Shown in pieces: positions 41,255 through 60,518 of a stretch of 64,000 bases of DNA. Numbering within the stretch: the stretch's first letter is position 1; each line of letters opens with the position of its first letter. The position numbers and the translations under genes are program-made. This DNA comes from an uncultured Pedobacter sp. (lineage in GTDB: Bacteria; Bacteroidota; Bacteroidia; Sphingobacteriales; Sphingobacteriaceae), in contig NZ_CAMLIG010000019.1 of the NCBI RefSeq assembly GCF_946480185.1, forward strand, positions 19,032-83,031, in the 5' to 3' direction. The notes under the pieces are model-generated. The model was given only the letters and a program-made list of their open reading frames with translations, was not told where the DNA came from and made no database searches.

Positions 41255-41294
41255 AGTGACGGAAAAAGCTTCTCAGAAGCTCTAAATTTCAAAA

Positions 41295-42029: not shown

Positions 42030-42078
42030 TCAAAATTTCTCTAACTAAAATCCAACCCCTAAACTATATATAAATTTT

Positions 42079-43383: not shown

Positions 43384-43390
43384 TTTAAAA

Positions 43391-43417
43391 AAGCTCTCCG
43401 AAATGGAGAGTTTTTTA
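43391..43417 (+). terminator. Terminator after murA
   Basis: Stem CTCTCC/GGAGAG with a 5-base loop, followed by a T-run. Confidence 0.85.
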
Positions 43418-43521
43418 TTTATAGTAGATTCTTCGGCTAAACTTAAAACGATTTTCTGTTTTAAGTGTTATTAAAAACCATAGTATTTATTCTACCGTAA
43501 TTATTAAAAATTCAAAATATC

Positions 43522-44319: not shown

Positions 44320-44333
44320 TAGTTAACCGCAGC

Positions 44334-45656
44334 ATGAAAATTGTAATTATCGGTAACGGAATAGCTGGAATTACCACCGCCAGACATATCAGAAAACAAA
44401 GCGATCACGAAATTTTAGTTATTTCTGCCGAGTCTGACCATTTTTTTTCGAGAACTGCACTCATGTATATTTACATGGGGCACATGAAATACGAACATAC
44501 CAAACCCTATGAAGATTGGTTTTGGGAGAAAAACAGAATAGCGTTAAAAAACGCATATATCGCCGATATTGATTTTAAAAATAAAACGTTAAAAACTGCT
44601 GCAGGAGAAGAAATTGTTTATGATAAACTGGTCATCTCTACCGGTTCTGTTCCTAAAACATTTGGCTGGCCCGGAGAAAATTTGAAAGGCGTACAAGGTT
44701 TGTACAGCAAGCAAGACGTGGAATTAATGGAAGAAAATACCAAGAATGTTAAACAGTCCGTAATTGTGGGTGGCGGTTTAATTGGTATTGAAATGGCAGA
44801 AATGCTGAACAGCCGGGGAATTGAAGTCACCTTTTTAATTAGAGAAAAGCATTATTGGAACAGTGTTCTGCCTTTAGAAGAAGCGCAGTTGGTAAGCAGA
44901 CATATTCATGAACACCACATCAATTTATTGCCTAATACAGAGTTGGAAGAGATTTTGGCTGACGGAAATGGTTGGGTAAAAGCAGTTAAAACCAAAGACG
45001 GAAAAACCATCAATTGCCAATTTGTAGGTTTAACCACCGGAGTTATGCCAAACGTTAATTTTCTAAAAAACAGCGAATTAGAATTGGATGAAGGCATTTT
45101 GATCAATGAATTTTTAGAAACTAATATCGAGGATGTTTATGCTTTGGGCGATTGTGCACAGTTCAGAAATCCAAAAGAAAACCATCCACCGGTAGAAAAA
45201 CTTTGGTACACAGGCAAAATGCAGGGGAAAACTTTGGCAAAAACTATCTGTGGCAACAAGACCAAATACGAAAGGGGAATTTGGTTTAATTCCGCAAAGT
45301 TTTTGGATATTGAATATCAAACTTATGGCTTAATGTTTAAAAATCCTTTTAACGATGAGGCTACGTTTTATTGGGAACATCCGAAAGGTAAAATCTCTTT
45401 TCGGGCAAACTTTAGTAAATTAGACGGTAGCATTAAAGGTTTTAATTTTTTTGGAATCAGGTTTAAACAAACCCTTGCAGATACTTGGATCAGAAACGGA
45501 AACCACATCAGCAATTGCATTGCGCATTTAAACGAAGGTTTTTTTGATCCAGAATTTAGCGCCAACCCTCACAAAAAAATAATAGAACAGTTTAACAATA
45601 CTTATCCGCTTCACAAAGTGGAGCTTCCTAAAAAGAAAAAATTTTTAATTTTTTAA
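44334..45656 (+). CDS. FAD-dependent pyridine-nucleotide oxidoreductase
   Basis: 440 residues with two dinucleotide-binding motifs. The FAD site is G-N-G-I-A-G-I-T-T-A at the N-terminus and the NAD(P)H site is V-G-G-G-L-I-G-I-E-M-A, with T-G-S-V-P-K and A-L-G-D-C-A-Q closing the FAD site. No redox-active C-x4-C disulfide, so it resembles ferredoxin reductases, nitrite-reductase-type or NDH-2-like proteins rather than disulfide reductases. ATG at 44334 begins directly with the Rossmann strand. A likely electron partner is the membrane iron-sulfur protein 21 bases downstream. Confidence 0.88.
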   Translation: MKIVIIGNGIAGITTARHIRKQSDHEILVISAESDHFFSRTALMYIYMGHMKYEHTKPYEDWFWEKNRIALKNAYIADIDFKNKTLKTAAGEEIVYDKLVISTGSVPKTFGWPGENLKGVQGLYSKQDVELMEENTKNVKQSVIVGGGLIGIEMAEMLNSRGIEVTFLIREKHYWNSVLPLEEAQLVSRHIHEHHINLLPNTELEEILADGNGWVKAVKTKDGKTINCQFVGLTTGVMPNVNFLKNSELELDEGILINEFLETNIEDVYALGDCAQFRNPKENHPPVEKLWYTGKMQGKTLAKTICGNKTKYERGIWFNSAKFLDIEYQTYGLMFKNPFNDEATFYWEHPKGKISFRANFSKLDGSIKGFNFFGIRFKQTLADTWIRNGNHISNCIAHLNEGFFDPEFSANPHKKIIEQFNNTYPLHKVELPKKKKFLIF

Positions 45657-45677
45657 ATCCGATAGATTATAAAGAAC

Positions 45678-47210
45678 ATGAAAATCATTCAAAAAATCGG
45701 ACTTGCCATATTTATCATTTGTTTAGGCTTTTTTCTATCATTATTAAGTTTTGGGAAATATCAACTTACGGAAAAAGTATTTAATGCCTCTGTAACGGAT
45801 AGTACGCACAGGGCATTGCTAATGCCGAATATTAAAGCAATGTTTGGCAAAGAATATAATAGCAACATCAATTTCATTGCTGACTATAATAAAGCTTTAG
45901 ACAAAACCAATCAGAAATTTAAAGAAAACAAAGAATATGATAAAGTAATCAGTACAGATTATGCTTTATCGCTCACTAAAAACAGCACTATTGGTTTTTT
46001 AAAAGAAAACCAAATGCTTTTGTTCTATATCTGTTTTATAATTAGCGCTTTAAGTGGGGCTATTTATATGGTTGCTGATCTTTTTATTCAGCCTGTAGCG
46101 GGCATGAGAAATAACGGCATTTTTAAAACCGGAATTACCAGTCGCGGAACCATTGCTGTTTTATTCAGTGTCTTTTTGATTGTTTTTTACCTCTTTTTGT
46201 ACAAAGCACCTGCCTATTTAAGCAATTGGGTTTTGTTGGTAGATCCCTTAAGCTACACTTTAAACGGTAGCGAAGCCAGCCATTGGTTTTTATACGGATT
46301 TTTGTACTGCCTAATTATGGTAACTATGGGCATTAGAATGTATGTAAAATACCGCCACAATACCTATCAAATGGTACGCACTACTTCGGTTATATTTTTT
46401 CAAGTGGCTTTTGCTTTTTTAATTCCAAATATTTTATCAAAGTTGCAGTTGCCATCTGCAGACTTAAAAAACATGTGGCCGTTAGATTATACGTTCTTCT
46501 TTGATTATCATTTAAATACGCTTTTATCGTCCGGATTATTAGGTTATTGGATGTTAGGTTGGGGAATATTCTTATTTGTGGTTGGCGTACCGGTTATGGT
46601 TTATTTCTTCGGTAAAAGATGGTATTGTAGTTGGGTTTGCGGTTGCGGTGGTTTAGCAGAAACTTTTGGCGATCCGTTTAGACAATTATCTGATAAATCT
46701 TTAAAAGCCTGGAAATACGAAAGAGTAATTGTCCACAGCGTTTTAGTTTTTGCTATCCTGATGACGGTTGCTGTTTTATATACTTTCTTTACGGGTTCAT
46801 CCACCATTATAGGGATTAACACTTATGCTATAAGAGAGATTTACGCTTTTGCCATCGGGTTTATATTTGCCGGAGCAATTGGAACAGGTTTTTATCCCTT
46901 AATGGGAAGCAGGGTCTGGTGCAGGTTTGGTTGTCCCTTAGCAGCCTATTTAGGTTTGGTGCAAAGATTTAAATCACAATTTAGAATTACTACCAACGGC
47001 GGACAGTGCATATCTTGTGGCAATTGTTCTACCTATTGCGAAATGGGAATTGATGTGAGAGCTTATGCTCAAAAGGGAGAAAATATCATCAGGGCATCTT
47101 GTGTAGGTTGTGGGGTTTGTGCGGCAGTTTGTCCGAGAGGAGTTTTGAAATTAGAAAATTTAGCAGAAGAAGGTCGGTTTGATATTTACACCAGACCAGA
47201 AGAGAAGTAA
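45678..47210 (+). CDS. Polytopic membrane 4Fe-4S protein (NapH/CcoG-like)
   Basis: 510 residues. An N-terminal membrane anchor is followed by about six more membrane segments. Two C-x3-C-P-like membrane cysteine motifs are seen (Y-C-S-W-V-C-G-C-G-G and W-C-R-F-G-C-P-L-A-A). C-terminally there are two ferredoxin clusters, C-I-S-C-G-N-C-S-T-Y-C and C-V-G-C-G-V-C-A-A-V-C-P. This is the layout of NapH, NosR or CcoG-type electron-transfer proteins at the quinone/cytoplasm interface. No nap, nos or cco genes are present, so the pathway is unknown. Its stop overlaps the next start in TAATG. Confidence 0.85.
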   Translation: MKIIQKIGLAIFIICLGFFLSLLSFGKYQLTEKVFNASVTDSTHRALLMPNIKAMFGKEYNSNINFIADYNKALDKTNQKFKENKEYDKVISTDYALSLTKNSTIGFLKENQMLLFYICFIISALSGAIYMVADLFIQPVAGMRNNGIFKTGITSRGTIAVLFSVFLIVFYLFLYKAPAYLSNWVLLVDPLSYTLNGSEASHWFLYGFLYCLIMVTMGIRMYVKYRHNTYQMVRTTSVIFFQVAFAFLIPNILSKLQLPSADLKNMWPLDYTFFFDYHLNTLLSSGLLGYWMLGWGIFLFVVGVPVMVYFFGKRWYCSWVCGCGGLAETFGDPFRQLSDKSLKAWKYERVIVHSVLVFAILMTVAVLYTFFTGSSTIIGINTYAIREIYAFAIGFIFAGAIGTGFYPLMGSRVWCRFGCPLAAYLGLVQRFKSQFRITTNGGQCISCGNCSTYCEMGIDVRAYAQKGENIIRASCVGCGVCAAVCPRGVLKLENLAEEGRFDIYTRPEEK

Positions 47211-47914
47211 TGGTGAATGAGCTGACAAACAGGAAGGTTTATGTGATTATTCCTGCATATAATGAAGAAAAATCAATTGCGAAAGTTATCAATGATATAC
47301 CCAAATCTGTGGTAATGGAAGTTGTAGTTGGCAATAATAATTCGAAAGACAATACACAGTTGGAGGCCGAAAAAGCTGGCGCAACCGTAGTGTTGGCACC
47401 CATATCCGGTTACGGAAATGCCTGTTTAAAAGGTATCGAATATTTAAAAGCAAAAGCAAATCCTCAGGATATTGTTGTTTTTTTAGATGGCGATTATTCT
47501 GATTATCCAGAAGAAATTTCAAAATTAATTGCGCCTATTGATAATTTGGAAGCTGACTTGGTAATTGGGTCCAGAGCATTAGGAGCGAAAGAACGCGGTT
47601 CAATGACCTTGCCACAGGAATTCGGAAACTGGCTGGCCACGCATTTAATTGATCTATTTTATAAAGTAAAATTCACCGATTTAGGGCCTTTTAGAGCAAT
47701 TACTTGGGAAAAACTAATGCTAATTAATATGCAGGATACCACATACGGTTGGACGGTAGAAATGCAGGTAAAAGCAGTTAAACTCCATTTAAAATGTACG
47801 GAAATCCCAGTAAAATATAGAAAGCGGATTGGTGTAAGCAAGGTTTCTGGTACAATAAAAGGAGTGGTTTTAGCAGGTTATAAAATCATCTTTACAATTT
47901 TTAAAAACCTGTAA
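47210..47914 (+). CDS. GT2 glycosyltransferase, polyprenyl-phosphate type
   Basis: 234 residues with a GT-A fold: I-I-P-A-Y-N-E-E-K-S at the N-terminus, the D-x-D as F-L-D-G-D-Y-S-D-Y-P, and G-S-R-A-L-G. It resembles dolichyl/undecaprenyl-phosphate glucosyl- or mannosyltransferases. No membrane segment, so the product is probably made at the cytoplasmic face. The start codon overlaps the stop of the iron-sulfur gene (TAATG), a clear coupling signal. Confidence 0.88.
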   Translation: MVNELTNRKVYVIIPAYNEEKSIAKVINDIPKSVVMEVVVGNNNSKDNTQLEAEKAGATVVLAPISGYGNACLKGIEYLKAKANPQDIVVFLDGDYSDYPEEISKLIAPIDNLEADLVIGSRALGAKERGSMTLPQEFGNWLATHLIDLFYKVKFTDLGPFRAITWEKLMLINMQDTTYGWTVEMQVKAVKLHLKCTEIPVKYRKRIGVSKVSGTIKGVVLAGYKIIFTIFKNL

Positions 47915-47927
47915 TTTTACAACATAA

Positions 47928-49391
47928 ATGATTTGGCAAATTACAATATTGGTTTTGTACGTAATTTCACTTACCGTGATATTGTTGTTTAGCGTAGGGC
48001 AAGCTTTTCTCATTTATTTCTACTTAAAATCTAAAAAAACAAATTCCCCAAAGTTAAAGCTCCCCGAAAATCTTCCGATCATTACCATTCAACTTCCGCT
48101 TTTCAATGAACTTTATGTAACCGAGCGTTTAATAAATTCCGTTTGTAATTTAAATTATCCCAATAACAAATTAGAAATTCAGGTTTTAGATGATTCTAAC
48201 GACGAATCTTTGGCTTTAACTGCCAAATTGATTCTCGATAAAGTTGCTTTAGGTTTTGATATTCAGCATATTAAAAGAGGAAAAAATATTGGATTTAAAG
48301 CGGGGGCGCTTCAATACGGTTTAACACAAGCAAAAGGAGAGCTCATCGCAATTTTTGATGCTGATTTTTTACCAGAACCAGAATTTCTAAATCAACTTCT
48401 ACCCTATTTCGAAAACGATAATATCGGAATGGTGCAAAGTAGATGGGGACATATCAATAATGATTTTTCTTTGTTAACTAAAGTTCAAGGATTCGGATTG
48501 GACGGGCACTTTACCATTGAACAAACAGGTAGAAATTCGGCCCACCTATTCATGAATTTTAATGGAACCGCTGGTATATGGCGTAAAAAGTGCATTGAAG
48601 AAGCAGGTGGATGGCAACACGATACACTTACAGAAGACTTAGATTTAAGTTATCGAGCACAATTAAAAGGTTGGGAATTTAAGTATGTAGAAGAAATTAC
48701 AACACCCGCAGAACTGCCGGTAGAATTAAATTCGTTTAAATCTCAACAGCATCGCTGGACCAAAGGAGCCATTGAAACATCTAAGAAAATGATCACCTCA
48801 GTTTGGAAAACAGATATAGGTTTAAAAAGAAAGATATTTGCCAGTTTACATCTATTAAATTCTTACGCTTTCCTGTTTATTTTCTTAACAAGTGTATTGA
48901 GCATTCCGGTTTTATTTATAAAAAACAATACGGATATCCCCACTATCTATTTTCAACTCCTATCAATTTATGTGATCGGTTTTTTAATTGTCACTTTGTT
49001 TTACCTAATTGCCAGTTTTTCAAAACATAAAGATTACGGGTCGTTTATAAAGCTTTTCCCTATGTTTTTGTCCGTTTCTATGGCATTAAGTTTTCATAAC
49101 TCCATCGCAGTGTTGGAAGGTGTTTTTAATTTTAAATCAGATTTTATCCGAACACCAAAATTTAACGTCACTACTATTACCGATAGTTTCAAAAGCAATA
49201 TTTACCTAAAGCACAAACTTTCAGTATCTTTTTATGCCGAGTTATTGTTGTGTTTGTATTTCTTTACGGGAGTAATTGCAGCGTTTTATTACAAAGACTT
49301 TGCATTGCTACCTTTCCATCTGATGCTTTTTACGGGTTTTTGTGTTTTAAACTTTTATTCGCTTAAAAGCCATTTTATAAGCTCGTATTAG
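47928..49391 (+). CDS. Membrane GT2 glycosyltransferase, cellulose-synthase-like
   Basis: 487 residues. An N-terminal membrane helix is followed by a GT2 domain with V-L-D-D-S-N-D, F-D-A-D-F, T-E-D-L-D-L and Q-Q-H-R-W, the D, DxD, TED and QxxRW motifs of processive beta-glycosyltransferases. Four or five membrane segments follow. It could make a beta-linked glycan or glucosylate a lipid. Last gene of the operon beginning with the DUF547 lipoprotein, 13 bases after the first GT. Confidence 0.92.
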   Translation: MIWQITILVLYVISLTVILLFSVGQAFLIYFYLKSKKTNSPKLKLPENLPIITIQLPLFNELYVTERLINSVCNLNYPNNKLEIQVLDDSNDESLALTAKLILDKVALGFDIQHIKRGKNIGFKAGALQYGLTQAKGELIAIFDADFLPEPEFLNQLLPYFENDNIGMVQSRWGHINNDFSLLTKVQGFGLDGHFTIEQTGRNSAHLFMNFNGTAGIWRKKCIEEAGGWQHDTLTEDLDLSYRAQLKGWEFKYVEEITTPAELPVELNSFKSQQHRWTKGAIETSKKMITSVWKTDIGLKRKIFASLHLLNSYAFLFIFLTSVLSIPVLFIKNNTDIPTIYFQLLSIYVIGFLIVTLFYLIASFSKHKDYGSFIKLFPMFLSVSMALSFHNSIAVLEGVFNFKSDFIRTPKFNVTTITDSFKSNIYLKHKLSVSFYAELLLCLYFFTGVIAAFYYKDFALLPFHLMLFTGFCVLNFYSLKSHFISSY

Positions 49392-49556
49392 CTACTAAAA
49401 CGCACAAGCTCTTGCAGGCAACATGCTATAAGTGTTTAAAAATTGCTGGCAAATGCACTCATTCGCTTAAAGGCTTTCATTAAATTATTCAAGAAGATTC
49501 TGGCTGCAATCCATATTTTTTAAGATATTCAATCATTATTTATAAATCTTTTATAA

Positions 49557-49590
49557 GGGATTTATAGGGACTTTCTAGGGGATTCATAGG
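49557..49590. repeat. Short direct repeat upstream of the DUF6266 gene
   Basis: GGGATTTATAGG (49557-49568) and GGGATTCATAGG (49579-49590), 11 of 12 identical, spaced 22 bases. The rest of the 49392-49663 gap is AT-rich with no gene seen. Confidence 0.45.
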
Positions 49591-49663
49591 AATCTTTACC
49601 TTTAAAAACCCTATTTTGTATTTATTATATATTTTGAATATATTGTTTACTCGTTACTAAACT

Positions 49664-50281
49664 ATGGCTATTATCAAAAACGGAATCAACGGGGGATTTA
49701 GTGGGAAAGTGGGCAATGTAGTAGGCACAACTTGGCGTGGACTGGAAATCATACGTTCCAAACCTTGTCCGCCCCAAAAGTTTAGCGAGAAACAGCTCGC
49801 CAATCAGCTAAAGATGAAATTGGTGCAACTCTTCCTAAAAAAAATGGTGGAAGTGGTGCGGATTGGCTTTAGGGATGAAACTATTATTCCTACAGCTTTC
49901 AACAGTGCCCTATCCTACAATAAGAAGAATGCGATCATCGGCACCTACCCTGATCTGGTATTGGATTATACTTTGGTGCGCCTTGCCCAAGGCCACGTTT
50001 ATATGCCGGCATCCATCACTTTTTCTCAGGATGATGCGGGTATATATTTAGAATGGGACAGCATTTTGAAAGAAAATGCCCGAAGGGATGACCAATTACT
50101 TCTGGTGGTTTGGGACAAGGAATCGAGCACCTGCGAATATAGCCTGCAGGCCTATCGTTCAAACACCAAATTCAGCTTCCTGCCTCAACAGCTAAGAGCA
50201 GGCATGTACATTTGGGCAGCCTTCATCCGGCATGACCGTAGCATGCAAAGCAATAGCGTGTATTTAGGAGTAACAGTTTAA
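49664..50281 (+). CDS. DUF6266-family protein
   Basis: 205 residues matching a Bacteroidota family recognised by its N-terminus (M-A-I-I-K-N-G-I-N-G-G-F-S-G-K-V-G-N-V). No signal peptide or catalytic motif. Codon usage is visibly richer in G and C than in the neighbours, which suggests transfer. Function unknown; it marks the left edge of the repeat-rich accessory region. Confidence 0.75.
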   Translation: MAIIKNGINGGFSGKVGNVVGTTWRGLEIIRSKPCPPQKFSEKQLANQLKMKLVQLFLKKMVEVVRIGFRDETIIPTAFNSALSYNKKNAIIGTYPDLVLDYTLVRLAQGHVYMPASITFSQDDAGIYLEWDSILKENARRDDQLLLVVWDKESSTCEYSLQAYRSNTKFSFLPQQLRAGMYIWAAFIRHDRSMQSNSVYLGVTV

Positions 50282-50370
50282 TCTGATTTGGAATTTTATC
50301 CCGCAGAGGAAAAGAGTCCTCCCACACACAGGGCTGCCCTTATTAATCCCCGTCATGTCGACGACAGGAG

Positions 50371-50424
50371 ACATCCCACTTGCAAGTTTTTCCATTTGCA
50401 TCGCGTAACTTGCGTGTGGGATGT
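50371..50424. repeat. Large inverted repeat (18-bp arms)
   Basis: Left arm ACATCCCACTTGCAAGTT (50371-50388) and right arm AACTTGCGTGTGGGATGT (50407-50424) pair at 16 of 18 positions with an 18-base loop. No T-run, and it lies 90 bases after the DUF6266 stop. Confidence 0.75.
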
Positions 50425-50476
50425 ATCTTCAATAAACTAACGTTTTCACTCCGTTCAATATGGCGCATTGAAGGGG

Positions 50477-50654
50477 CCTAACTTTCTGAAGAGTTAAGCG
50501 TAGCGCTCTTCGGATTCTTCAATGAAAAAGAGTCTTCAGACTCTTTAAAGTTTTTAGTTTTAGGGAGCTATTGTTTTTTTAATTAGGGAGTTTGGAAACT
50601 CCTATTTATTATTTGATCCAGAGAGACGTTGCACTTAACTCTCAGGACAGATGG
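50477..50654. repeat. MITE-like element, copy A
   Basis: About 178 bases ending in imperfect inverted repeats (50482-50498 and 50634-50650). Inside are hairpin AAAGAGTCT/AGACTCTTT (50527-50546) and hairpin GGAGTTT/AAACTCC. A second copy lies at 57196-57370 in the same orientation; the 3' third is identical except for one base. Confidence 0.75.
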
Positions 50655-50735
50655 GGAAAAGTTTTAAATGAGCTATTGAATTTTGAGACTACACCTAAAA
50701 ATAGCAACAAACGAATAGACTAACAAAGTTGTATT

Positions 50736-51254
50736 ATGCAAATAAATAACCGAATTCTTCTTGCTCTTTTCTGTGCATTAGTGCTTTCTTTAAGCGCCTG
50801 TAAAAAAGACACCACAGCCACTTTAACCATTCATGTGTTAGACCCCAATCATAATGCTGCTCCAAGTATTGGCTTCGATATTTTAGAAAATACCGATAGG
50901 GTTTCTTATAGAAATCATATAGGTATTAGTACTGCTGACGGTGATGTGAATTTAACCCTGACTAAAGGAAAGAGCTATTTAATTTATTTGTTGGCTAGCG
51001 AAGCCTATTCAGACTGGTATATGGGTAATTCGGCGGCTACATTTGTTGCTACTGGTACCTTTAAATCTTTGGAAGAAATTAATCACAGCCCAATACAGAA
51101 ACCTACCCCAAAAGTTGGAGACACCAAATACGCTGATTTCAACGGTGACGGAGCAATTAACATTGACGACCTAGTTTTAAAGGTTGATTTAAAAGAGGAT
51201 ACGAAAATCACTGTCAATCTGATTGGTGGCAGGAATGCTTTTTATGGGCATTAG
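50736..51254 (+). CDS. Lipoprotein with dockerin/EF-hand-like calcium motif
   Basis: 172 residues with a lipobox L-S-L-S-A-C-K. The mature part starts with a beta-sandwich-like region (T-L-T-I-H-V-L-D-P-N), and the C-terminal half holds a single F-N-G-D-G-A-I-N-I-D-D-L calcium loop like one half of a dockerin. No family is recognised. It lies just inside copy A of the repeat element, at the left end of the accessory island. Confidence 0.6.
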   Translation: MQINNRILLALFCALVLSLSACKKDTTATLTIHVLDPNHNAAPSIGFDILENTDRVSYRNHIGISTADGDVNLTLTKGKSYLIYLLASEAYSDWYMGNSAATFVATGTFKSLEEINHSPIQKPTPKVGDTKYADFNGDGAINIDDLVLKVDLKEDTKITVNLIGGRNAFYGH

Positions 51255-51353
51255 GGTTATAATTTTATGACTTTGGTTAGCAGGGCAGTAACAAATATTC
51301 GCTAACTTTCCTAAAAGTTCAAGTTTAACAAGATCCAACCAAATGATTCAAGA

Positions 51354-52232
51354 TTATATCAATGCCGACTCTGCAGTAGCTTTTGAATAAGCATTCAACT
51401 CATCATGAGCTATCAAGTTCACACCTTTAGGTTTTTCTAATAACCTAATGGCATTATCATAAGCTTTAGACAAGCTCTTTGCCTTAGGCTTAGCTAAAAG
51501 CACATCAAACACATAATCTTTCTCATTGGCCATACTTTGAAGGTCTAAAAACTGACCGTAGTATTGATAGGCTTTCTTAGTAATAGCATCTTGCCTTGTT
51601 AAATCAAAGCTTACCGGTTTTACTAGATGCAAATGGTCATTTTCTTTCCATGCCACATCAAACTTAATCCTTGAACCATCATTTGGTTCAATGCTATAGT
51701 CAAAGTGGAATTTGTTGTTTTCTTTTATCGCCGTATTTTGATGGGAGAATTCCTTTAATAATTTTTTGTATTTGTTTAACAAAACGGATTCATCAACCCT
51801 TTTGGCAATGTTCTCCTGAAACTGGAAAACCGAAAAATACAAGTTGTATAACTGATTGGTGAGGTAATTGACGTCCTCTGTATACAGCACAGAAGTCCTG
51901 TAATTACCAAATTGTAAAGCAGACGAATCTGCCTGTAAAAATTCCTTCTCTACAAATACCTGTAGTGATTTGCTCAAATCATAATCCGCGAAAATCTCAG
52001 GATTCGCATTCAGTTCTCTTACCCGGCTATCAAAATATTTGAAATAAGCTTTGATGGTCTTATCAGGAACATTAGGATAGGCGAATCTTAATCGTATGAG
52101 CTTTTCAGGACAGATGAAAGCCAGCTTTTTAACATGCGGAAAATAAACCAGCAGGCCAATATTCAGCACTTCACCCAAAATTTGTGAGTGATGATACTGT
52201 AAAAGGCCATATGTAAAAGTTCCTTTATTCAT
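51354..52232 (-). CDS. DUF3037-domain protein, partner of the HipA-like kinase
   Basis: 292 residues. The N-terminus Y-G-L-L-Q-Y-H-H-S and G-E-V-L-N-I-G-L-L-V-Y-F match DUF3037. The C-terminal part is charged and helical with K-P-K-A-K. No helix-turn-helix is visible, so this is not a HipB-type antitoxin. Its ATG overlaps the kinase TGA in ATGA (4 bases), so the two proteins are made together. The function of DUF3037 is unknown; a role as regulator, cofactor or target of the kinase is inference. Confidence 0.8.
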   Translation of the reverse strand: MNKGTFTYGLLQYHHSQILGEVLNIGLLVYFPHVKKLAFICPEKLIRLRFAYPNVPDKTIKAYFKYFDSRVRELNANPEIFADYDLSKSLQVFVEKEFLQADSSALQFGNYRTSVLYTEDVNYLTNQLYNLYFSVFQFQENIAKRVDESVLLNKYKKLLKEFSHQNTAIKENNKFHFDYSIEPNDGSRIKFDVAWKENDHLHLVKPVSFDLTRQDAITKKAYQYYGQFLDLQSMANEKDYVFDVLLAKPKAKSLSKAYDNAIRLLEKPKGVNLIAHDELNAYSKATAESALI

Positions 52233-53056
52233 GCTATTAATCCCAACAAGACAATACGAAAATGATTTGAGTTTTGTTTCAGGTATCGAAGATAATCAAT
52301 TAATAAATTAGAATTGCCTGTTTTAATCTGATGATCATCTAACTCTTGAATGTATTCAACTATCCTATTTATATTTAATGTTCTTAAAGATTGCTCAAAA
52401 GTATCAAATAAATTCCTTTTGGAACCTTTATAATTTTTCAAGCTGTTATAAAAAATATGCTTTTGATAAAAACCTGGCCAAGAGCTTGCGTTAAAAACTT
52501 CCAATAGCTTGTTTAAGGAAGCATCATTTTCACTATCTATAAAATTTAACGTCAATTCATGATCTATCAATATAAAACCATCATCATCCAACAGTAAATT
52601 TGGTTTATTACGATGACCGCCTCGGTCTGTATTTAATATTAAGCAGTCAAAAGCAAATAAAGTTGCCCGATCATGCATATCGAAAGAATTGTACTTTAAG
52701 CTTACATTTATTAAGGAGGCATCTATTAGGGTACTGGCAAATGTCAATCCTTTATGTTTGCTGTTTAAGTTTGCTAATACTTCTTCATCCAGTGTGGCAA
52801 GAAAATCTTCCTGATGTAAATCAATCAAAAAAGCGGAAGGTATTACAAAATCAAATTCGCTAGCCAGCGTATTACAAATAAATTCTTTAGCGATGCTATT
52901 TCCTTGCAAAACATTATTCTCAGTGAATAGTTTAACCACCATGTTTCGTTCCTCTGGAATTTCCTCACCTTGCTGAATTGCCATTACCTTCCAAGGCTTT
53001 GTAGAGCCACCGGATTGCATATAACCATCAAATCTAACAGGTAATAATATTTCCAA
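52229..53056 (-). CDS. HipA-like kinase family protein
   Basis: 275 residues resembling the compact HipA-like kinase family (HipA_2 type). It has a Gly-Gly-Ser-x-Lys-Pro segment near the N-terminus, a candidate ATP lysine in V-V-K-L-F (Lys42), a catalytic loop N-T-D-R-G-G-H-R-N-K-P-N-L-L (Asp144, Asn153) and a metal-binding L-I-D-H-E (Asp165). It is much shorter than E. coli HipA (440). The start is TTG at 53056; the later ATG at 53020 would drop the conserved segment. It is the upstream gene of a two-gene unit with DUF3037. Substrate unknown. Confidence 0.8.
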   Translation of the reverse strand: MEILLPVRFDGYMQSGGSTKPWKVMAIQQGEEIPEERNMVVKLFTENNVLQGNSIAKEFICNTLASEFDFVIPSAFLIDLHQEDFLATLDEEVLANLNSKHKGLTFASTLIDASLINVSLKYNSFDMHDRATLFAFDCLILNTDRGGHRNKPNLLLDDDGFILIDHELTLNFIDSENDASLNKLLEVFNASSWPGFYQKHIFYNSLKNYKGSKRNLFDTFEQSLRTLNINRIVEYIQELDDHQIKTGNSNLLIDYLRYLKQNSNHFRIVLLGLIA

Positions 53057-53162
53057 AAAACAGCTAATTTAATGCTAAATATAGTTCAATTCTATTTAAC
53101 CAGAAACTCTTAGGTATTGTTTCAATCAAGCGACACATCTTCTTTACATCTATAACACCCAT

Positions 53163-54128
53163 TTATCGCCGCTGAAAGTTTTGATTAATAACATAGTGAA
53201 TATATAAGTCGACATCTGACTGCCCATTATAAATCCAAGGAGGCATTAAACTCAAAGCTTCTTTAATCTTTAAATCAATTAGTTTAGCTTGTACATCGGA
53301 GTGCTTAAACCTGGTAAGCTTAGCAACCGGATCAGTCATGATTAAGAAAGTTAGCTCTGAATGATCATCGGGAAAGTCTCCTGTAAATCGCTCACTATCG
53401 AAGCTCAACTGGTTGTCCGCTGCAATTTTATAGGAAACCTTGTATTTTTGATAAACATAGGTATCCCAATAGTTTTCAGGGACCTCGACTAGATCATTAA
53501 AAAGGTAATTGGCAAAGCTGTATCCTCCCATCGGTTCCGTAGCCGTAGTGTACTTTACATTGGGTACGTTTAAAATATACCATTCTTCTGTATTGTCATT
53601 TTGTATAACCCCACCCTTAGGAAATGGAGCTTCATTTTTGAGTAGATATTTTTTCGAGGCAAAATTATACTGAACAACTGGATTTTTTCCTTTTTTATCA
53701 TTAATTGTCCATAGACCGATGGGCTGATTAGCCTCGTAACTGCCCTGGCAAAGTACTGCACCTTTATCGTTATAATAGGTCCACTTCCCAATTTTGTTTC
53801 CCCTATCAAATTGACCGTCAACTTTAGATTGCCCCTTAACATTATACACCTCAACCTTGCCCTGGAGCAATCCATTTTGGTAATTAAATTTACGGATCAA
53901 CTTTCCTTTACGGCTATATGTTTTCCATTCCCCATCTTTTTGCCCGTTTAGAAATGCGCCATTTTCAATTAACAAGCCATTGCATTTCATCTCATACTGA
54001 CGGTTCAAAGCTGGCGAAACTTGTTCAATCTTGCTCTCGCAATTACAGTAATCAAGTTTTTCTATTTCTTGCCCATATGAAGTGTGGATGATGAATGCGG
54101 AAATTAATCCTAAAATTAGTTTTTTCAT
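53163..54128 (-). CDS. Secreted MORN-repeat protein
   Basis: 321 residues with a signal peptide (ending S-Y-G-Q). Four MORN_2-type repeats run from about residue 50 to 155, recognisable by G-x-x-x-G-x-W-x-x-Y (G-E-W-K-T-Y, G-K-W-T-Y-Y, G-L-W-T-I). The C-terminal half has a TonB-C-like ending (K-L-I-D-L-K-I-K-E-A-L..P-P-W). Some relatives are called YwqK-type antitoxins in databases, but the signal peptide argues against that role here. 106 bases upstream of the HipA-like start, same strand, no overlap. Confidence 0.7.
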   Translation of the reverse strand: MKKLILGLISAFIIHTSYGQEIEKLDYCNCESKIEQVSPALNRQYEMKCNGLLIENGAFLNGQKDGEWKTYSRKGKLIRKFNYQNGLLQGKVEVYNVKGQSKVDGQFDRGNKIGKWTYYNDKGAVLCQGSYEANQPIGLWTINDKKGKNPVVQYNFASKKYLLKNEAPFPKGGVIQNDNTEEWYILNVPNVKYTTATEPMGGYSFANYLFNDLVEVPENYWDTYVYQKYKVSYKIAADNQLSFDSERFTGDFPDDHSELTFLIMTDPVAKLTRFKHSDVQAKLIDLKIKEALSLMPPWIYNGQSDVDLYIHYVINQNFQRR

Positions 54129-54527
54129 GTGTCTTATAATGCTTGGTAAATATATTAGATCTAAGGCAAATTATGAGTATCAACTCATCACGTTTAATCG
54201 TCCCGTTCATTTAAATATTTTTGAAAACTAAGAAGTTTGTTGATGCTATTCTACATTTTAGCGTAGCGCATGTGGAATTTTTGATAGTGTGGATTTGCAA
54301 TCCACTTCGTACAAAAGCGTTTTTACGCGGATTACAAATCCGCTTCATTTAAGATTCGGGATGCGTTACGCTAACATACCGAACAGCTTGGATTAAACCC
54401 AAAAAATGATTAAACTCTATGTTCATTTGCCAATTATTATTAGTTTATATCTTCTTAGCTAATTGCTTTAGTGGTTATTTATATCGGTATGATTTTGATT
54501 TTTTAACCGAATAATCTAAATAACCAT
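54129..54527. other. Intergenic region with a REP/BIME-like element
   Basis: 399 bases without a gene. The middle (54258-54374) is the structured element listed separately. The right part, near 54375-54500, is AT-rich and shows nothing else. Confidence 0.6.
54258..54374. repeat. REP/BIME-like element with terminal inverted repeats
   Basis: 117 bases bounded by TTAGCGTAGCGCAT (54258-54271) and ATGCGTTACGCTAA (54361-54374), 13 of 14 complementary. Inside are two hairpins with related arms: GTGGATT-TGC-AATCCAC (54289-54305) and GCGGATT-ACA-AATCCGC (54327-54343). Confidence 0.78.
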
Positions 54528-55316
54528 TTACACAGAAACCGGTATTCCCTGCTCCTTTACGTTCTCTATTCGCTTGGGCAAATTTGGATGTGAAGATGCT
54601 TTTTCGGCAAACCATTTCCAGAAACCTGTTTCATAACTGGCATTTTCAAGGTATGCTTCCACATTCACCTTTTTGTAAGTTGTTTTACCTGAAGCAAGCA
54701 CCAGTAAACCTGAGCCCGATCCACTTGGACTAAGGGCATTCCCGATATTGTCGCAGGTATATTCGCAGGCTCTGGAATAGGCTGAGTTAAGAAAAGGAAT
54801 AAATATGGAAGGAAACAGCCAAAAACGCTTTTGAATATGCTTTCTTTTGATATGGCCCAACTCGTGGGCTAATACGAAGCTGAGTTCGTCCATTCCTCCC
54901 TCGAAAGCCAAATCGAATATCTCAGAATAGATTAACACATAGTCTTTACCGATAAATCTTGTGGCAAAGGCATTGAGCAACCCACCGTGTTGCATCATAT
55001 AAACCGGAGGGATGGGCATTCCTAAGCGGTCACATTGTTTTTCGAGCACTTGGTAAACTTCAGGGAATTGTCGTTCGGTAATTCTTACTGCATTGCCTTT
55101 AATATGCCCCACCAAAATGCCATGAGCAAAGAAAAAATAAAGCATAATGAATACAGCATAAAGGGTTAAAGGCAGAAAGACCATTAACTTAGCTTCTGTT
55201 GTAAACAGCGCATAAATGCCATAAAGTATGAGCGCATAAAGGGGAATGCTCACCATTAATTTGGTGATGAAATAGCGGTTTTCTTTTGGATGAATTTCGT
55301 ACTGTAAAGGTTCCAT
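54528..55316 (-). CDS. M48-family membrane metallopeptidase
   Basis: 262 residues. Two membrane segments (about residues 15-70) precede the peptidase domain with the zinc motif H151-E-L-G-H155 in F-V-L-A-H-E-L-G-H-I-K, and the third ligand glutamate in C-E-Y-T-C-D (Glu185). It belongs to the HtpX/Ste24-like group that degrades misfolded membrane proteins or processes precursors. It follows a small membrane-protein gene after 26 bases on the same strand, likely one operon. Confidence 0.92.
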   Translation of the reverse strand: MEPLQYEIHPKENRYFITKLMVSIPLYALILYGIYALFTTEAKLMVFLPLTLYAVFIMLYFFFAHGILVGHIKGNAVRITERQFPEVYQVLEKQCDRLGMPIPPVYMMQHGGLLNAFATRFIGKDYVLIYSEIFDLAFEGGMDELSFVLAHELGHIKRKHIQKRFWLFPSIFIPFLNSAYSRACEYTCDNIGNALSPSGSGSGLLVLASGKTTYKKVNVEAYLENASYETGFWKWFAEKASSHPNLPKRIENVKEQGIPVSV

Positions 55317-55342
55317 TGGTTTTATAGAAATTGATTTTTAAT

Positions 55343-55825
55343 TTAAGAATTTGGTATTTGTTGCGGTTCTTTGTTTACCCATGCATATTCTTTTTTATTG
55401 AGCGCTCTATAAAAGAGTACAAGCAATATGATTTCGAGGCGGAAGGTTACGGCGTAGCCATCAGCAATGATCGGCAGGATCAGCATCACCAGTACACAAA
55501 TAACCACTCCCAAAACGGCGTCAATTTTACCCAACAAAAACGCATAATCTTTCTCAAACCATAAGGCGTAGGCGGTAAATCCTTTGAACAGCATCAGCGT
55601 GATTAATAAGAAACCAATAGCTGATAATGGGTTGTTTGTACTGATGCCGTACAGCGAAAGATAGGTTTCTTTCCAGGTTGCCACCATTGCTAAACTTAAC
55701 GGTGCAATAACACCCATAGCCATAAATAACCAGCAAAATGCTTTGATCCACCAGGGCAATAAATCTCTTCGGGAAAAACCCTCATGATTTTGTAGCGGTA
55801 AAGACTCTTGTAAATGTTCTTCCAT
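55343..55825 (-). CDS. Four-helix membrane protein upstream of the M48 peptidase
   Basis: 160 residues from the ATG at 55825. After a charged N-terminus (M-E-E-H-L-Q-E-S-L) there are four hydrophobic segments (around residues 27-48, 66-90, 100-122 and 125-140 in this numbering). No family recognised. The frame stays open up to a TTG at 55924, so a longer protein of 193 residues is possible, but the extension has no clear features. It probably acts with, or is a substrate of, the peptidase encoded next to it. Confidence 0.55.
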   Translation of the reverse strand: MEEHLQESLPLQNHEGFSRRDLLPWWIKAFCWLFMAMGVIAPLSLAMVATWKETYLSLYGISTNNPLSAIGFLLITLMLFKGFTAYALWFEKDYAFLLGKIDAVLGVVICVLVMLILPIIADGYAVTFRLEIILLVLFYRALNKKEYAWVNKEPQQIPNS

Positions 55826-55924
55826 ATATTTATCATTATCGATATGCTGACCACACACCATCAAAAATAGAGATGGTTCACCTTCCCATTCCAAACAGCG
55901 GATAATACTTAATTTTAAATTCAA

Positions 55925-56422
55925 TATCCAATCACCACAGTCCGCACCACCATGTCATGCGATGATTTTCTTCTTACCGCGAACCAATAAATTCATTAGT
56001 TAAGGGATTTTCCAAGCGTTTTAGGTTTGGAACTAAAATTAGCTTTTTATTAACAATAAAGCAAGTATATTATTTGTTAATTTATGAATGTGCTACATGA
56101 AATTCGGAATTTGCGCTGGAGGAGGTAAATTTTCGTAGGCTTGTTGACGTGATAACGTCCCCTAGCTTCCTCAATGCTATTATTTAAGAAAATATTCACT
56201 TGAGGACGAAACATCTCACAAGCAAGGTCTGCTCATAGAATTTATTACCTATTTTTGTGATTTTTCACTACGTTCAAAATGACGAAACGCTTAACTTGAT
56301 AACATTGCAAGTCTCCAGCGGGGGACATCTTGCTTGTGCTCTTTAATTATCGGTAGATTAACCGCATATAAATTTTTAATTTAATTAGCTATATTTAAAG
56401 CACTAATTAAAAACCAATCAAA
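55925..56422. other. Repeat-rich intergenic region
   Basis: 498 bases without a gene. Seen here: GACGTGATAACGTC hairpin near 56148; CACAAGCAAG (56217-56226) facing CTTGCTTGTG (56329-56338); a degraded tract GGACGAAACATCTCA ... TTTTTCACTACGTTCAAAATGACG. The segment GGCTTGTTGACGTG near 56139 recurs as GGCTTGTTGATGTG near 57146, just before repeat copy B. Confidence 0.6.
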
Positions 56423-57121
56423 ATGAAATTCACTTTTCTTTTCGCCTGTTTTTGTATTTTATTGTTCCATTCAGCTTTTGCTCAGACCTATGAAAAGCCT
56501 TACGTAGAAAGTGTGGGCGATAGGCTCTGTTACATCACCAAGGTTGAATTCACCAAGCGGAACACCATTGTTAGCTTTGAGCATTTGAACAACAAGGGCT
56601 GGATACGCTTAAGTGACCACATCCAAATTAGAACGCCAGAAAATAAAAGTTACCACTATATCAAATCGGAAGGAATCAGCATTGCGCCAGAAATGTATCA
56701 TTTTAAAGCGGATGAACAGAAACATGCCTTTACGGTGTACTTTGAGCCTTTACCTAAAAACACTAAAATATTTGATGTGATAGAAGTTGAACCCGGAAGC
56801 AAGTTTGACTTTAATTTTTATGGCATCAACCTTGAAAAGCAAAGAACTACTGACCTACAGATTCCTCATTTTCAAGCAAGAGAGATAACAGATACAGTGC
56901 TTGTTTCTCCGCCTCCACCTCCTTTTTCAGCAGGATTCACAGCCAATAGCTTTAAAGAGATCTACCAATCTTCCCTACAGGGATTAACCGATTATTTTAA
57001 ACAGCCCGAAGTGTTGAAAGAGCAAGCACATTTAAGAAAAGCTTTTTATGATGCCCTGCTTGCCGAAGGCTTTACCAGTGAACAGGCTATGCAGATTTTG
57101 GTTTCCACCCCGTTCAAATAA
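56423..57121 (+). CDS. Secreted protein of unknown function
   Basis: 232 residues with a clear signal peptide (ending A-F-A-Q). The mature protein begins with a strand-rich region (I-T-K-V-E-F-T-K-R-N-T-I-V-S-F-E) that suggests a beta-sandwich, then a Pro-rich hinge (P-P-P-P-P-F near residue 165), then a helical C-terminus. No family recognised. It is the right-hand gene of the accessory island, 75 bases from repeat copy B. Confidence 0.65.
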   Translation: MKFTFLFACFCILLFHSAFAQTYEKPYVESVGDRLCYITKVEFTKRNTIVSFEHLNNKGWIRLSDHIQIRTPENKSYHYIKSEGISIAPEMYHFKADEQKHAFTVYFEPLPKNTKIFDVIEVEPGSKFDFNFYGINLEKQRTTDLQIPHFQAREITDTVLVSPPPPPFSAGFTANSFKEIYQSSLQGLTDYFKQPEVLKEQAHLRKAFYDALLAEGFTSEQAMQILVSTPFK

Positions 57122-57195
57122 TCTGTAAAATCTTTTGCATGAGGGCTTGTTGATGTGCTAAGGGTCTTATCGAGGGCATCAACCTCCCCACAGCC

Positions 57196-57370
57196 CCTAA
57201 CTGTCTGTAGAGTTAAGCGTAGTGCTCTTCGGATTCTTAAATGGAAAAGAGTCTCCAGACTCTTTAAAGTTTTAGTTCTCGCAACTATTCCTTTTTAATT
57301 AAGGAGTTTGGAAACTCCTATTTATTATTTAATCCAGAGAGACGTTGCACTTAACTCTCAGGACAGATGG
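57196..57370. repeat. MITE-like element, copy B
   Basis: About 175 bases, same orientation as copy A. Terminal inverted repeats CTGTCTGTAGAGTTAAG (57201-57217) and CTTAACTCTCAGGACAG (57350-57366) match at 14 of 17. Internal hairpins AAAGAGTCT/AGACTCTTT and AGGAGTTT/AAACTCCT are conserved. Confidence 0.75.
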
Positions 57371-57414
57371 CTTGCGAGTGCTTTTTAATCATTATCGGGC
57401 TTGTCGATTGGCAA

Positions 57415-57456
57415 TAAAAAGGCTCACGATTTAATCAACCGAAAGCCTCTTTAATT
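57415..57456 (-). terminator. Terminator of the DUF2911 gene
   Basis: Minus strand: GAGGCT ... AGCCTTTTTATT, a 5-bp stem around an inner partial stem, followed by a T-run. Confidence 0.55.
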
Positions 57457-57467
57457 TTCAATAGTAT

Positions 57468-57986
57468 TTATTTAACCGTAAACGGTACAATTACATTTCC
57501 CCACATTAATTTTACCTCGCCCGATTTTTCAATCTTAAAAGTCATTTTTTCGGTGAAATCTTTAGCGGTCATTGCGTTAACTTTAATACGTAAAGCATCA
57601 TCAGCTTCTGCATATTTAGTACCCCACTGGTTCCAGGTTTTGTTGAAAATGATAGTCCATTCTTTTGCACCAGGAATGCTGTATAAACCATATTTACCAG
57701 CCGCCAATGCTTTCCCATTGATTTTAACATCCTTATTCACTTCAAAAACGGTAGCTTCATTAGCTCCTGTTCTCCAAACTTTACCGTAAGGCGCAATCTC
57801 GTTTCCAATGGTTCTGCCTTTAACAGAGGGTTGGCTGTAATCAATCGAGACAGTTACTCCTGATTTTAAGGTTTCAGTAACTTTATCTGGCGGACTAGGT
57901 CTTTTGCTCTTGTCGGTTTGTGCGTTTACATTAACGGTGGCAAATAAAATAAACAGACTGGCAATAATTGCGATTTGTTTTTTCAT
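57468..57986 (-). CDS. DUF2911-domain secreted protein
   Basis: 172 residues with a signal peptide (ending V-N-A-Q). The DUF2911 signature is present: I-D-Y-S-Q-P-S-V-K-G-R-T, Y-G-K-V-W-R-T-G-A-N-E-A-T and G-K-Y-G-L-Y-S-I-P. Family function unknown; it is common in Bacteroidota periplasms. Monocistronic. Confidence 0.88.
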   Translation of the reverse strand: MKKQIAIIASLFILFATVNVNAQTDKSKRPSPPDKVTETLKSGVTVSIDYSQPSVKGRTIGNEIAPYGKVWRTGANEATVFEVNKDVKINGKALAAGKYGLYSIPGAKEWTIIFNKTWNQWGTKYAEADDALRIKVNAMTAKDFTEKMTFKIEKSGEVKLMWGNVIVPFTVK

Positions 57987-58135
57987 GATGTGTTTTCTTT
58001 AAAAATTTATGATTTTAGGTTACAAACGTTCATTTATACAATAATGTTTTAGCATATTAAACTCTAATCTATAAAACATTTTTTAAACCTGCATGTTTTA
58101 GCAATGAAACAGTACATTTAAGCGTTTAGCTTTAC

Positions 58136-58143
58136 TACATTTG
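58136..58143 (+). promoter_or_regulatory. -7 box for the TonB receptor gene
   Basis: TACATTTG matches TAnnTTTG, 35 bases before the ATG at 58179. No clear -33 TTG. Confidence 0.45.
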
Positions 58144-58178
58144 AAAAAAATATTATCCTCAACAAGCATTATATATTG

Positions 58179-60515
58179 ATGAAAATTAAATTTCTGTTGC
58201 TTTTCTTGTCTTCCATTTGTTTTCTCAATATTAACTCGGTGCTTGCCCAAAAAAACTACGTTTTAAATGGCGTTTTAAAAGACGCTACCAGTGGAGAAAC
58301 CTTAATTGGCGCTTCTGTGCAGCTATATGGTAGTGCTACAATGGGAACCGTTACAAATGCTTATGGTTACTATTCGCTAAGCGTTCCAGCTGGTGTTTAT
58401 CAGGTGGTTTACAGCTATGTAGGCTATCAAACCATCAAAAAAAATATTAGCCTTAATGGCGATATTACCCAGAATATTTCCCTTTCATCTGCAAATCAGT
58501 TAAATGAAGTGGTGGTTACCGATGAAAAGCGCAATAACAATGTGGAAAATCCTTTAATGGGCGTTCAAAAGTTAAACGTTAAGGAAATCAATAATATTCC
58601 TGTTTTGTTTGGAGAGCGTGATATTTTAAAAACGCTACAACTGTTACCGGGTATAAAATCTGCCGGAGAAGGAAATAGCGGTTTTTATGTCAGAGGAGGC
58701 TCGACCGACCAAAACCTAATTTTGTTAGATGAGGCGCCAGTTTATAATGCCTCTCACCTACTGGGTTTTTTCTCTACTTTTAATTCAGATGCCATAAAGG
58801 ATGTTACTGTTTATAAAGGAGATATGCCTGCACAATACGGTGGCAGATTAGCCTCAGTTTTGGATATTAAAATGAACGATGGCAATAAAAAAGCCTATAC
58901 CGTTGAAGGCGGACTTGGATTAATTGCTTCGCGATTGAAAGTTGAAGGACCCATAAAGAAAGACAAAAGTTCATTTATGATTAGCGGAAGAAGAACTTAC
59001 GCCGATACCTTTTTAGCTTTTTCGCCCGATACCAGCGTTAGGGGAAGCAAGCTTTATTTTTATGATTTAAATGCCAAAATGAACTTTATTTTGGATAGCA
59101 AAAACAGCCTCTACTTTTCAGGCTATTTTGGTAGAGATAAATTGGGGATTAAAAACAGTTTCGGATTTGATTGGGGAAACACTACCGGAACCATCAGGTT
59201 AAATCACTTGTTTTCCAACCGACTTTTTTCTAACACTTCTTTAATTTACAGCAATTACAATTACCTAATTGAAAGCTTATTGTCTGATAATGATTTTAAC
59301 GTTAAATCTTCGATCAGAGATTTTAATTTAAAACAGGATTTTCAGTTTACCGCCAACAATGCCCACGAGATTAAATTTGGTTTAAATGCCATATATCACA
59401 CCATCATCCCCGGTAAAATTACGGCAAGCCAAAGCTCAAGTGTAAACGAAAGCCAAATAGAGAACCGTAACGGATTAGAATTGGCCGCTTATTTTTCTGA
59501 CGAATATAAGATTACCGATGGGCTTAATGTGGCTTATGGCGCAAGGTTTAGCGATTTTGCCGCTTTAGGCTCAGGCACATTTAAAACTTATGACAAAGAC
59601 GGCAACGAAACCAGCTCAACAAGCTACACAGCCGGAGAAGTAGTGAAAAACTATTTTAATTTGGAACCACGTATTTCGGTGGCCTACAAATTATCAGACA
59701 GTAAATCCATAAAGGTATCTTTTGCCAGAAATACGCAAAACTTGCATTTAATGTCTAACTCTACGGCAACTTCTCCTACCGATTTATACATTATGAACAG
59801 CAATAATGTGAAACCGGAAATCTCGGATCAGGTTGCTTTAGGTTATTTCAGCAATTTCAAAAACGACAGTTACGAGTTTTCTTCAGAAATCTATTACAAA
59901 AACATGAAGAACCAAATTGAATACCGTAACGGTACGGATTTACGTGGAAACAAAAACGTAGAATCTGATTTGCTGTTTGGCGATGGAAGAGCTTATGGTA
60001 TTGAGCTATTCTTAAAAAAGCGCTTCGGTAATTTTAACGGTTGGATTGGTTATACCTTAGCAAAAACCGAAAGACAGTTTCAACAAATTAACAATGGAAA
60101 ATGGTTTAACGCAAAGCAAGACCGTACGCATGACCTTTCTTTAGTTGGAATTTACAAGGCTAGCAAACGCTGGACTTTATCTTCAACTTTTGTTTACAGT
60201 ACCGGAAACGCCATTACTTATCCCAGTGGCAAATATCAGTTAAACGGACAAACTGTTTTTTATTACTCAGAAAAAAACGGTTACCGCACTCCTGCTTATC
60301 ACCGTTTAGATTTATCCGCAACTTTAGAACCTAAAGTAAATCCAAACAGAAAATACCAGTCGAGCTGGTCTTTCGGGATTTATAATGTTTACAACAGAAA
60401 AAATGCTTATTCTATTGATTTTAAAAACGATCCGGATAATCCAAGTAAAACCCAAGCGGTGCAAACTTCCTTATTTGGCATTATACCATCTGTTACCTGG
60501 AATTTTAAGTTTTAA
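58179..60515 (+). CDS. TonB-dependent receptor with carboxypeptidase-like domain
   Basis: 778 residues with a signal peptide (ending V-L-A-Q), an N-terminal regulatory-like beta-sandwich (T-S-G-E-T-L-I-G-A-S-V), a plug domain (G-F-Y-V-R-G-G-S-T-D-Q-N-L-I-L-L-D-E) and a barrel ending in a final strand S-V-T-W-N-F-K-F with terminal Phe. It transports a substrate across the outer membrane using TonB energy. ATG at 58179 is used; a TTG one codon upstream adds only one residue. The DUF4249 gene starts 3 bases after its stop. Confidence 0.93.
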   Translation: MKIKFLLLFLSSICFLNINSVLAQKNYVLNGVLKDATSGETLIGASVQLYGSATMGTVTNAYGYYSLSVPAGVYQVVYSYVGYQTIKKNISLNGDITQNISLSSANQLNEVVVTDEKRNNNVENPLMGVQKLNVKEINNIPVLFGERDILKTLQLLPGIKSAGEGNSGFYVRGGSTDQNLILLDEAPVYNASHLLGFFSTFNSDAIKDVTVYKGDMPAQYGGRLASVLDIKMNDGNKKAYTVEGGLGLIASRLKVEGPIKKDKSSFMISGRRTYADTFLAFSPDTSVRGSKLYFYDLNAKMNFILDSKNSLYFSGYFGRDKLGIKNSFGFDWGNTTGTIRLNHLFSNRLFSNTSLIYSNYNYLIESLLSDNDFNVKSSIRDFNLKQDFQFTANNAHEIKFGLNAIYHTIIPGKITASQSSSVNESQIENRNGLELAAYFSDEYKITDGLNVAYGARFSDFAALGSGTFKTYDKDGNETSSTSYTAGEVVKNYFNLEPRISVAYKLSDSKSIKVSFARNTQNLHLMSNSTATSPTDLYIMNSNNVKPEISDQVALGYFSNFKNDSYEFSSEIYYKNMKNQIEYRNGTDLRGNKNVESDLLFGDGRAYGIELFLKKRFGNFNGWIGYTLAKTERQFQQINNGKWFNAKQDRTHDLSLVGIYKASKRWTLSSTFVYSTGNAITYPSGKYQLNGQTVFYYSEKNGYRTPAYHRLDLSATLEPKVNPNRKYQSSWSFGIYNVYNRKNAYSIDFKNDPDNPSKTQAVQTSLFGIIPSVTWNFKF

Positions 60516-60518
60516 CAC

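Follow-up and report, generated by a model that had tools for sequence, protein, structure and literature searches.

A HipA_2 kinase/DUF3037 gene pair on a small accessory stretch in Pedobacter, a probable toxin-antitoxin-like anti-phage unit of the PDC-M66/HipAD family

Two systems that pair a HipA-like kinase with a DUF3037 protein are in print, and both were met when the literature was searched for DUF3037 together with HipA-type kinase names, PDC-M66, HipAD and prophage defence. According to the available text on Retron-Sda1, its HipA-like kinase and DUF3037 gene confer protection from phage Bas51, this defence is lost once the kinase is deleted, the construct becomes toxic once DUF3037 is deleted, and the retron reverse transcriptase and ncRNA are dispensable for defence by the unit (PMC12548924). 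The same text gives the unit its PADLOC name, PDC-M66, notes a C-terminal resemblance to a DNA-binding protein of retrons and describes a strong association of DUF3037 with HipA-like proteins (PMC12548924). The other system, DS-6, renamed HipAD, consists of a kinase and a DUF3037/DUF1829 protein; the available part of the DefensePredictor paper cites for HipAD the work of Brenes and Laub 2025 on E. coli prophages, states that mutating a predicted catalytic residue of DS-6A abolishes defence, and presents an AlphaFold3 prediction of a DS-6A/DS-6B complex together with a weaker DNA contact (PMC13092281). Neither available text names a kinase target for this family, be it an aminoacyl-tRNA synthetase or another protein. 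DUF3037 is nowhere mentioned in the available text of a 2021 HipA phylogeny (PMC8262856). An earlier note on the locus studied here, made from the sequence alone, had known of no experimental description of the pair; with DS-6/HipAD (PMC13092281) and Retron-Sda1 (PMC12548924) published, at least as far as the available texts go, that statement is outdated, and a novel undescribed system is ruled out by PDC-M66, DS-6/HipAD and Retron-Sda1.

The locus lies in a stretch of Pedobacter DNA of 64,000 nucleotides, which we call the window. The pair consists of the following features.

52229..53056, minus strand: kinase of the HipA_2 family with a TTG start, 275 aa; a HipAD-type kinase (PDC-M66A) and the predicted toxin/effector
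51354..52232, minus strand: long DUF3037 protein, 292 aa, ATG start; predicted neutraliser of the kinase (PDC-M66B)
52229..52232, minus strand: ATGA overlap of the kinase stop and the DUF3037 start, read directly from the sequence

The positions of the two-gene HipA-like kinase/DUF3037 module with its 4-base ATGA overlap, as first proposed, were confirmed on the minus strand. The kinase matches HipA_2 of Pfam at 48.2 bits against a cut-off of 27, and in PADLOC the kinase matches PDC-M66A (88 bits) and the partner PDC-M66B (120.8 bits), each over approximately its full length. The Pfam score of the partner for DUF3037 is 20.3 bits, slightly under the cut-off of 22.6, and NCBIfam gave nothing useful for either protein. 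PDC-M66A is matched by all 66 aligned kinases and PDC-M66B by all 65 aligned partners (PADLOC), the alignments of relatives having taken in 64 of the 120 matches listed in one search and 65 of the 113 matches in the other. The module had also been described as lacking an HTH antitoxin, and indeed no significant HTH family was found in either protein with Pfam, NCBIfam and PADLOC or in five neighbouring ORFs with Pfam; one Myb/SANT-like match in the DUF3037 partner was sub-threshold (E 0.057). The next gene upstream, on the same strand, has a weak MORN match, and the next gene downstream is convergent and encodes a small protein whose match to dockerin is weak. For the DUF3037 protein, no match at E 1e-5 was found in curated records of plasmids and phages. 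Judged by these sequence matches, the pair belongs, as a Bacteroidota representative, to the already described PDC-M66/HipAD kinase/partner family. Anatomy, family membership by sequence models, catalytic residues, modelled folds, accessory location (by one comparison) and co-occurrence of the two genes were established for this pair.

The likeness to the described systems is close and incomplete. HipAD/DS-6, compared by description from the available text, shares with the window pair a two-gene arrangement of HipA-related kinase and DUF3037 protein with no HipB similarity, whereas DS-6B joins DUF3037 to DUF1829 and no sequence link to DUF1829 was found for the C-terminal domain of the window's partner. 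The Retron-Sda1 unit, likewise compared by description from the available text, has the same two kinds of gene and combines standalone defence with toxin/neutraliser behaviour; it differs in having a reverse transcriptase, none being reported beside the window pair. No reverse transcriptase was found among the Pfam matches of seven proteins, nor among the 23 PADLOC families matched by the 57 ORFs of the window; one window ORF matches the cold-shock model CSD_V, which we take to be retron-associated. Both models of the PADLOC defence candidate PDC-M66 match the window pair, although this label is broader than the pair, spanning at least two kinds including the near-core short pairs described below. 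HipBA and HipBST resemble the window kinase in their HipA/HipT-type kinase fold, the window kinase being short and HipT-sized. Unlike the window pair, in which the partner is DUF3037, HipBA has the HTH antitoxin HipB in its operon, and HipBST has HipB and HipS genes beside the short HipT whereas the window holds a two-gene unit without either.

Since the kinase of Retron-Sda1 is needed for defence and loss of its DUF3037 gene is toxic, according to the available text (PMC12548924), we favour a toxin/neutraliser reading of the window pair. It is probably, with a probability of about 0.76, a two-gene toxin-antitoxin-like anti-phage unit of the PDC-M66/HipAD family situated on a small accessory stretch, its function being judged from that of its relatives. 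The HipA_2 kinase would be potentially growth-stopping, and the co-translated DUF3037 protein would bind it and hold it off. Phage infection would disturb this inhibition, and the freed kinase would phosphorylate a host (or phage) target, so that growth of the infected cell and of the phage would come to a halt. The N-terminal DUF3037 domain, common to the short near-core pairs, may be the kinase-binding part and the degenerate nuclease-like C-terminal domain an added sensing or DNA-binding part. We infer this division of labour, as well as the trigger, the target and the whole mechanism in the Pedobacter organism. A toxin-antitoxin-like unit for phage defence, in which DUF3037 acts on the kinase, had been suggested before, and the suggestion is supported by the experiments on Retron-Sda1 and DS-6A in the available texts (PMC12548924, PMC13092281). 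Weighed in favour of defence were the PADLOC matches, the invariant catalytic residues, the frequent pairing and 4-bp overlap, the patchy long form, the empty site in the genome G120, restriction and MADS models near long-set loci and a pair on a predicted viral contig; weighed against it were the lone position of the unit in the window, the failure to find a DUF1829 link, the sub-threshold Pfam score for DUF3037, the match of the PDC-M66 models to near-core short pairs, the mixed ancestry of the long type and the existence of unpaired kinases and partners.

The kinase has intact catalytic residues. Lys42, Asp144, Asn153 and Asp165, picked out in the earlier note as HipA-type catalytic residues, are invariant in the 66 aligned kinases, as are E58 and R145, and the AF2 model (pLDDT 93.9) has a protein-kinase fold of the HipA/HipT type. 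The relative in Pedobacter mendelii is also a TTG-start ORF and overlaps its own partner by 4 bp.

The partner can be divided into two domains.

51825..52232, minus strand: DUF3037 N-terminal domain, residues 1-136, homologous to short near-core DUF3037
51357..51803, minus strand: C-terminal domain, residues 144-292, modelled fold PD-(D/E)XK-like, Leu standing in place of the motif acid

The N-terminal domain aligned with short DUF3037 in hhalign with a probability of 85% (E 5.8e-6). The C-terminal half has a PD-(D/E)XK nuclease-like fold in the structure model (Foldseek/VIA over residues 147-292), and this match would fit a system that has an active nuclease in the C-terminal domain as its true effector, with the kinase as the regulator. 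E148, D192 and K205 are largely retained and D210 is invariant in close relatives of the domain, so a shifted active site is conceivable. However, the D...(D/E)xK active site of PD-(D/E)XK nucleases is absent from the domain, the motif-acid position being Leu in 65/65 close relatives and holding an acid in none of the 37 proteins of a wider set. Because the motif acid is missing, we think an active nuclease in the DUF3037 partner unlikely; furthermore, the kinase of Sda1 is essential and loss of its partner is toxic in the available account (PMC12548924), and a nuclease effector under kinase control is in our view highly improbable. Homology of the C-terminal domain to DUF1829 was also considered and not found: against 13 DUF1829 proteins hhalign gave a probability of 1.6%, and DUF1829 had no Pfam match in the window's partner.

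The genome survey of HipA_2 and DUF3037 proposed in the earlier note bore out their association. In a phylum set of 296 genomes, DUF3037 was detected in 67 and HipA_2 in 74, and HipA_2 lay directly upstream on the same strand for 65 of the 69 DUF3037 matches, the short proteins being so paired in 50/50 cases and the long in 15/19. Four of those 19 long proteins were without a detectable kinase, and tblastn found no kinase in G100, which carries a lone long DUF3037. Seen from the kinase side, 65 of 78 HipA_2 matches were paired with DUF3037 and 13 had no Pfam-detectable DUF3037 alongside. By eye, three of these 13 have a downstream ORF of ~280-300 aa that starts like DUF3037, one of which is not adjacent and lies beside a broken kinase with a stop, and ten have none; therefore, unpaired kinases exist. 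The exact 4-bp overlap was present in 16 of the 22 long-set loci in which both ORFs were found; in two of the 22 the DUF3037 ORF is short (177 and 130 aa). A pair was also seen on IMGVR_UViG_3300049015_000086 (L150, L151), a predicted viral contig of 41 kb, where a kinase and a DUF3037 relative are adjacent by coordinates. HipA-like kinases, not necessarily of the HipA_2 type, are recorded in five 'Gratiaviridae' gut phages in the available text of PMC8008677.

The family has at least two tiers, of patchy long-form pairs and near-core short-form pairs. This was seen in a set of 201 genomes from the family of P. mendelii, a species that carries both short and long forms and whose partner is 63% identical to that of the window. 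A strong short-type DUF3037 match was present in 161/201 genomes, in none of which the best E was weaker than 5.2e-40; the phylum set gave matches of this strength for frames of 131-181 codons, and frames of at least 278 codons reached 1.1e-21 at best. The long form, searched for with the window's alignment, was found in 12/201 genomes, several of the matches being partial or distant. Among 31 short loci (the 30 best-scoring and that of P. mendelii) a HipA_2 ORF lay upstream of the short DUF3037 in all, abutting in 30 and ~200 bp off in one. The near-core short pair is like the window pair in its gene order, overlapping genes and homologous N-terminal DUF3037 domain. It differs in its short DUF3037 (127-133 aa in the 16 loci measured), in an overlap of 23 bp with the kinase in 12/16, in its separate kinase clade and in having DHG for DHE: the third residue of the DHx motif is Gly in 43/43 short-type kinases and mostly Glu in the window's kin (12/12 and 13/20). 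The available literature on DUF3037, HipAD and Retron-Sda1 yielded no description of this short pair.

In the kinase tree the 43 short-type kinases group together with 100% bootstrap support and the window's kinase lies outside them, in a clade of 80% support apart from the short clade; an earlier FastTree run with midpoint rooting gave 0.43 at the short-clade node. Eight long-type kinases, largely of a second long group, join the short clade at 100%, and in hhalign the long proteins of this second group show no link to the C-terminal half of the window's partner (probability 1.0%) and a weak one to its N-terminal half (7.3%). By these sequence comparisons the long types are not one lineage, and therefore many of the long-set neighbour ORFs considered next belong to other groups.

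The neighbour test, which excluded ORFs of at least 900 aa, submitted to PADLOC 138 of the 187 listed ORFs of 29 long-set loci, the genes of the pair and any ORFs beyond six per locus being dropped, and 95 of the 127 ORFs of 16 short loci. In some of the 29 long-set loci the partner is partial, short or split (L096, L097, L102-L104). The 138 long-set ORFs matched 377 PADLOC families at E 1e-8, a number inflated by redundant models; top among the 25 families listed were type IIG and type I restriction and MADS, at 3-4 of 138 ORFs each. The 95 short-set ORFs matched 33 families, likewise inflated, and the 25 of these listed were mostly helicase and included no restriction subunits (type IIG, type I). 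In six of the 16 short loci (L036-L051; e.g. L047:7373-8534) a serine acetyltransferase-like gene and a PLP-dependent (cysteine-synthase-like) gene come immediately after the pair. Furthermore, the near-core short pairs keep the same catalytic residues, K42, D144 and N153 being present in 42/42 short-type kinases covered. The near-core distribution, the neighbourhoods free of restriction genes among the families listed, the biosynthetic companions and the conserved residues would suit a regulatory pair that plays no part in defence, in which DUF3037 activates a non-toxic kinase, is its substrate or serves it as a scaffold; this may hold for the short pairs, which sit among ordinary genes. For the window pair we regard this as unlikely, since its kinase is outside the 100% bootstrap short clade, its form is patchy, and loss of DUF3037 is toxic in the related Retron-Sda1 pair according to the available text (PMC12548924).

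The proposal that HipA_2 with DUF3037 forms a defence unit therefore stands in part: the available reports on relatives support it, whereas the near-core short form, which showed no association with defence genes, speaks against extending it to every such pair. In the two short pairs tested with PADLOC, the PDC-M66 models match both genes, and therefore the PDC-M66 label is not defence-specific; some caution is warranted, as in PADLOC it will fall on near-core genes possibly unrelated to defence.

The pair itself was already known; what is new here is the near-core short tier, the nuclease-like add-on and the accessory setting. A lone Bacteroidota locus is placed in a defence family with two tested members in the available texts, one an E. 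coli system and the other the Sda1 unit. The contrast of long and short forms would allow a direct test of the putative kinase-binding part (the shared N-terminal domain) against the putative phage-sensing part (the extra C-terminal domain), and the short tier and the add-on together offer a testable story of a regulator turned immune sensor. Tentatively, we suggest that HipA_2/DUF3037 may at root be a near-core chromosomal kinase/regulator pair of Bacteroidota, linked at some loci with genes of cysteine biosynthesis, and that defence forms such as that of the window could have arisen, perhaps repeatedly, by the regulator gaining a degenerate nuclease-like domain that senses phage DNA or DNA damage and couples this to release of the kinase. 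If this were true, one regulator fold would serve both an immune effector and a housekeeping kinase switch.

The surroundings of the window pair comprise the following features.

49392..57467, no strand assigned: accessory stretch of ~8.1 kb, absent from G120
50477..50654, plus strand: left copy of a 178-bp direct repeat
57196..57370, plus strand: right copy of this repeat, with 90% identity to the left one

In G120, the best-matching genome sampled, homologues of 38728-49391 and 57468-61313 are collinear, and those of 47928-49391 and 57468-57986 are ~200 bp apart where the window has 8.1 kb. This means that 49392-57467 was either inserted in the lineage of the window or lost from G120. Since the right-flank genes were not found within 7.5-11 kb beyond the left flank in G077, G093 and G042, in which the left flank is present, the accessory status is carried by one genome, G120. 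Thus, of the repeat-flanked accessory island seen at the outset, the repeats were confirmed and the accessory nature comes from a single comparison. The pair sits between the two repeat copies, inside the accessory stretch. The repeat was not found at the G120 site or in the other loci fetched for comparison, no Rfam or tRNA match was obtained at the stretch or to the repeat, and by eye the repeat holds small inverted repeats. The stretch also carries an M48-family peptidase (54528-55316), with a partial match in only 1/201 family genomes (E 1e-20).

This location between direct repeats, in a stretch missing from G120, together with the toxin/antitoxin-like behaviour of the Retron-Sda1 relative in the available text (PMC12548924), is what an addiction module stabilising the accessory stretch would predict, with defence a by-product or absent. 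However, Pfam recognised no mobility gene among seven of the eight large ORFs of the stretch, and relatives confer measurable defence in the available texts (PMC12548924, PMC13092281), which makes a purely stabilising module very unlikely beside the anti-phage unit that we favour. PADLOC recognised no clear defence system near the pair among the 57 ORFs of the window, and the pair therefore looks like a lone unit; the other families matched were mostly helicase, plus MotB-like, cold-shock (CSD_V) and one PDC-M43B match.

Some relatives depart from the two-gene arrangement. Long DUF3037 adjoins a DUF3800 protein in one locus (L108:6678-8428) and a 1006-aa ORF in another (L111:4643-8585), neither neighbour having a HipA_2 match, and from these settings DUF3037 may be a modular partner. 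Long DUF3037 copies are broken or split in G080:C5 and G030:C25/C11, one with a stop codon. Three further loci (L110, L115, L119) hold three-gene strings with overlaps of 4 to 25 bp, in which an ORF of 261-264 aa (that of L115 without a Pfam match at E 0.01) precedes the kinase and the long DUF3037 gene.
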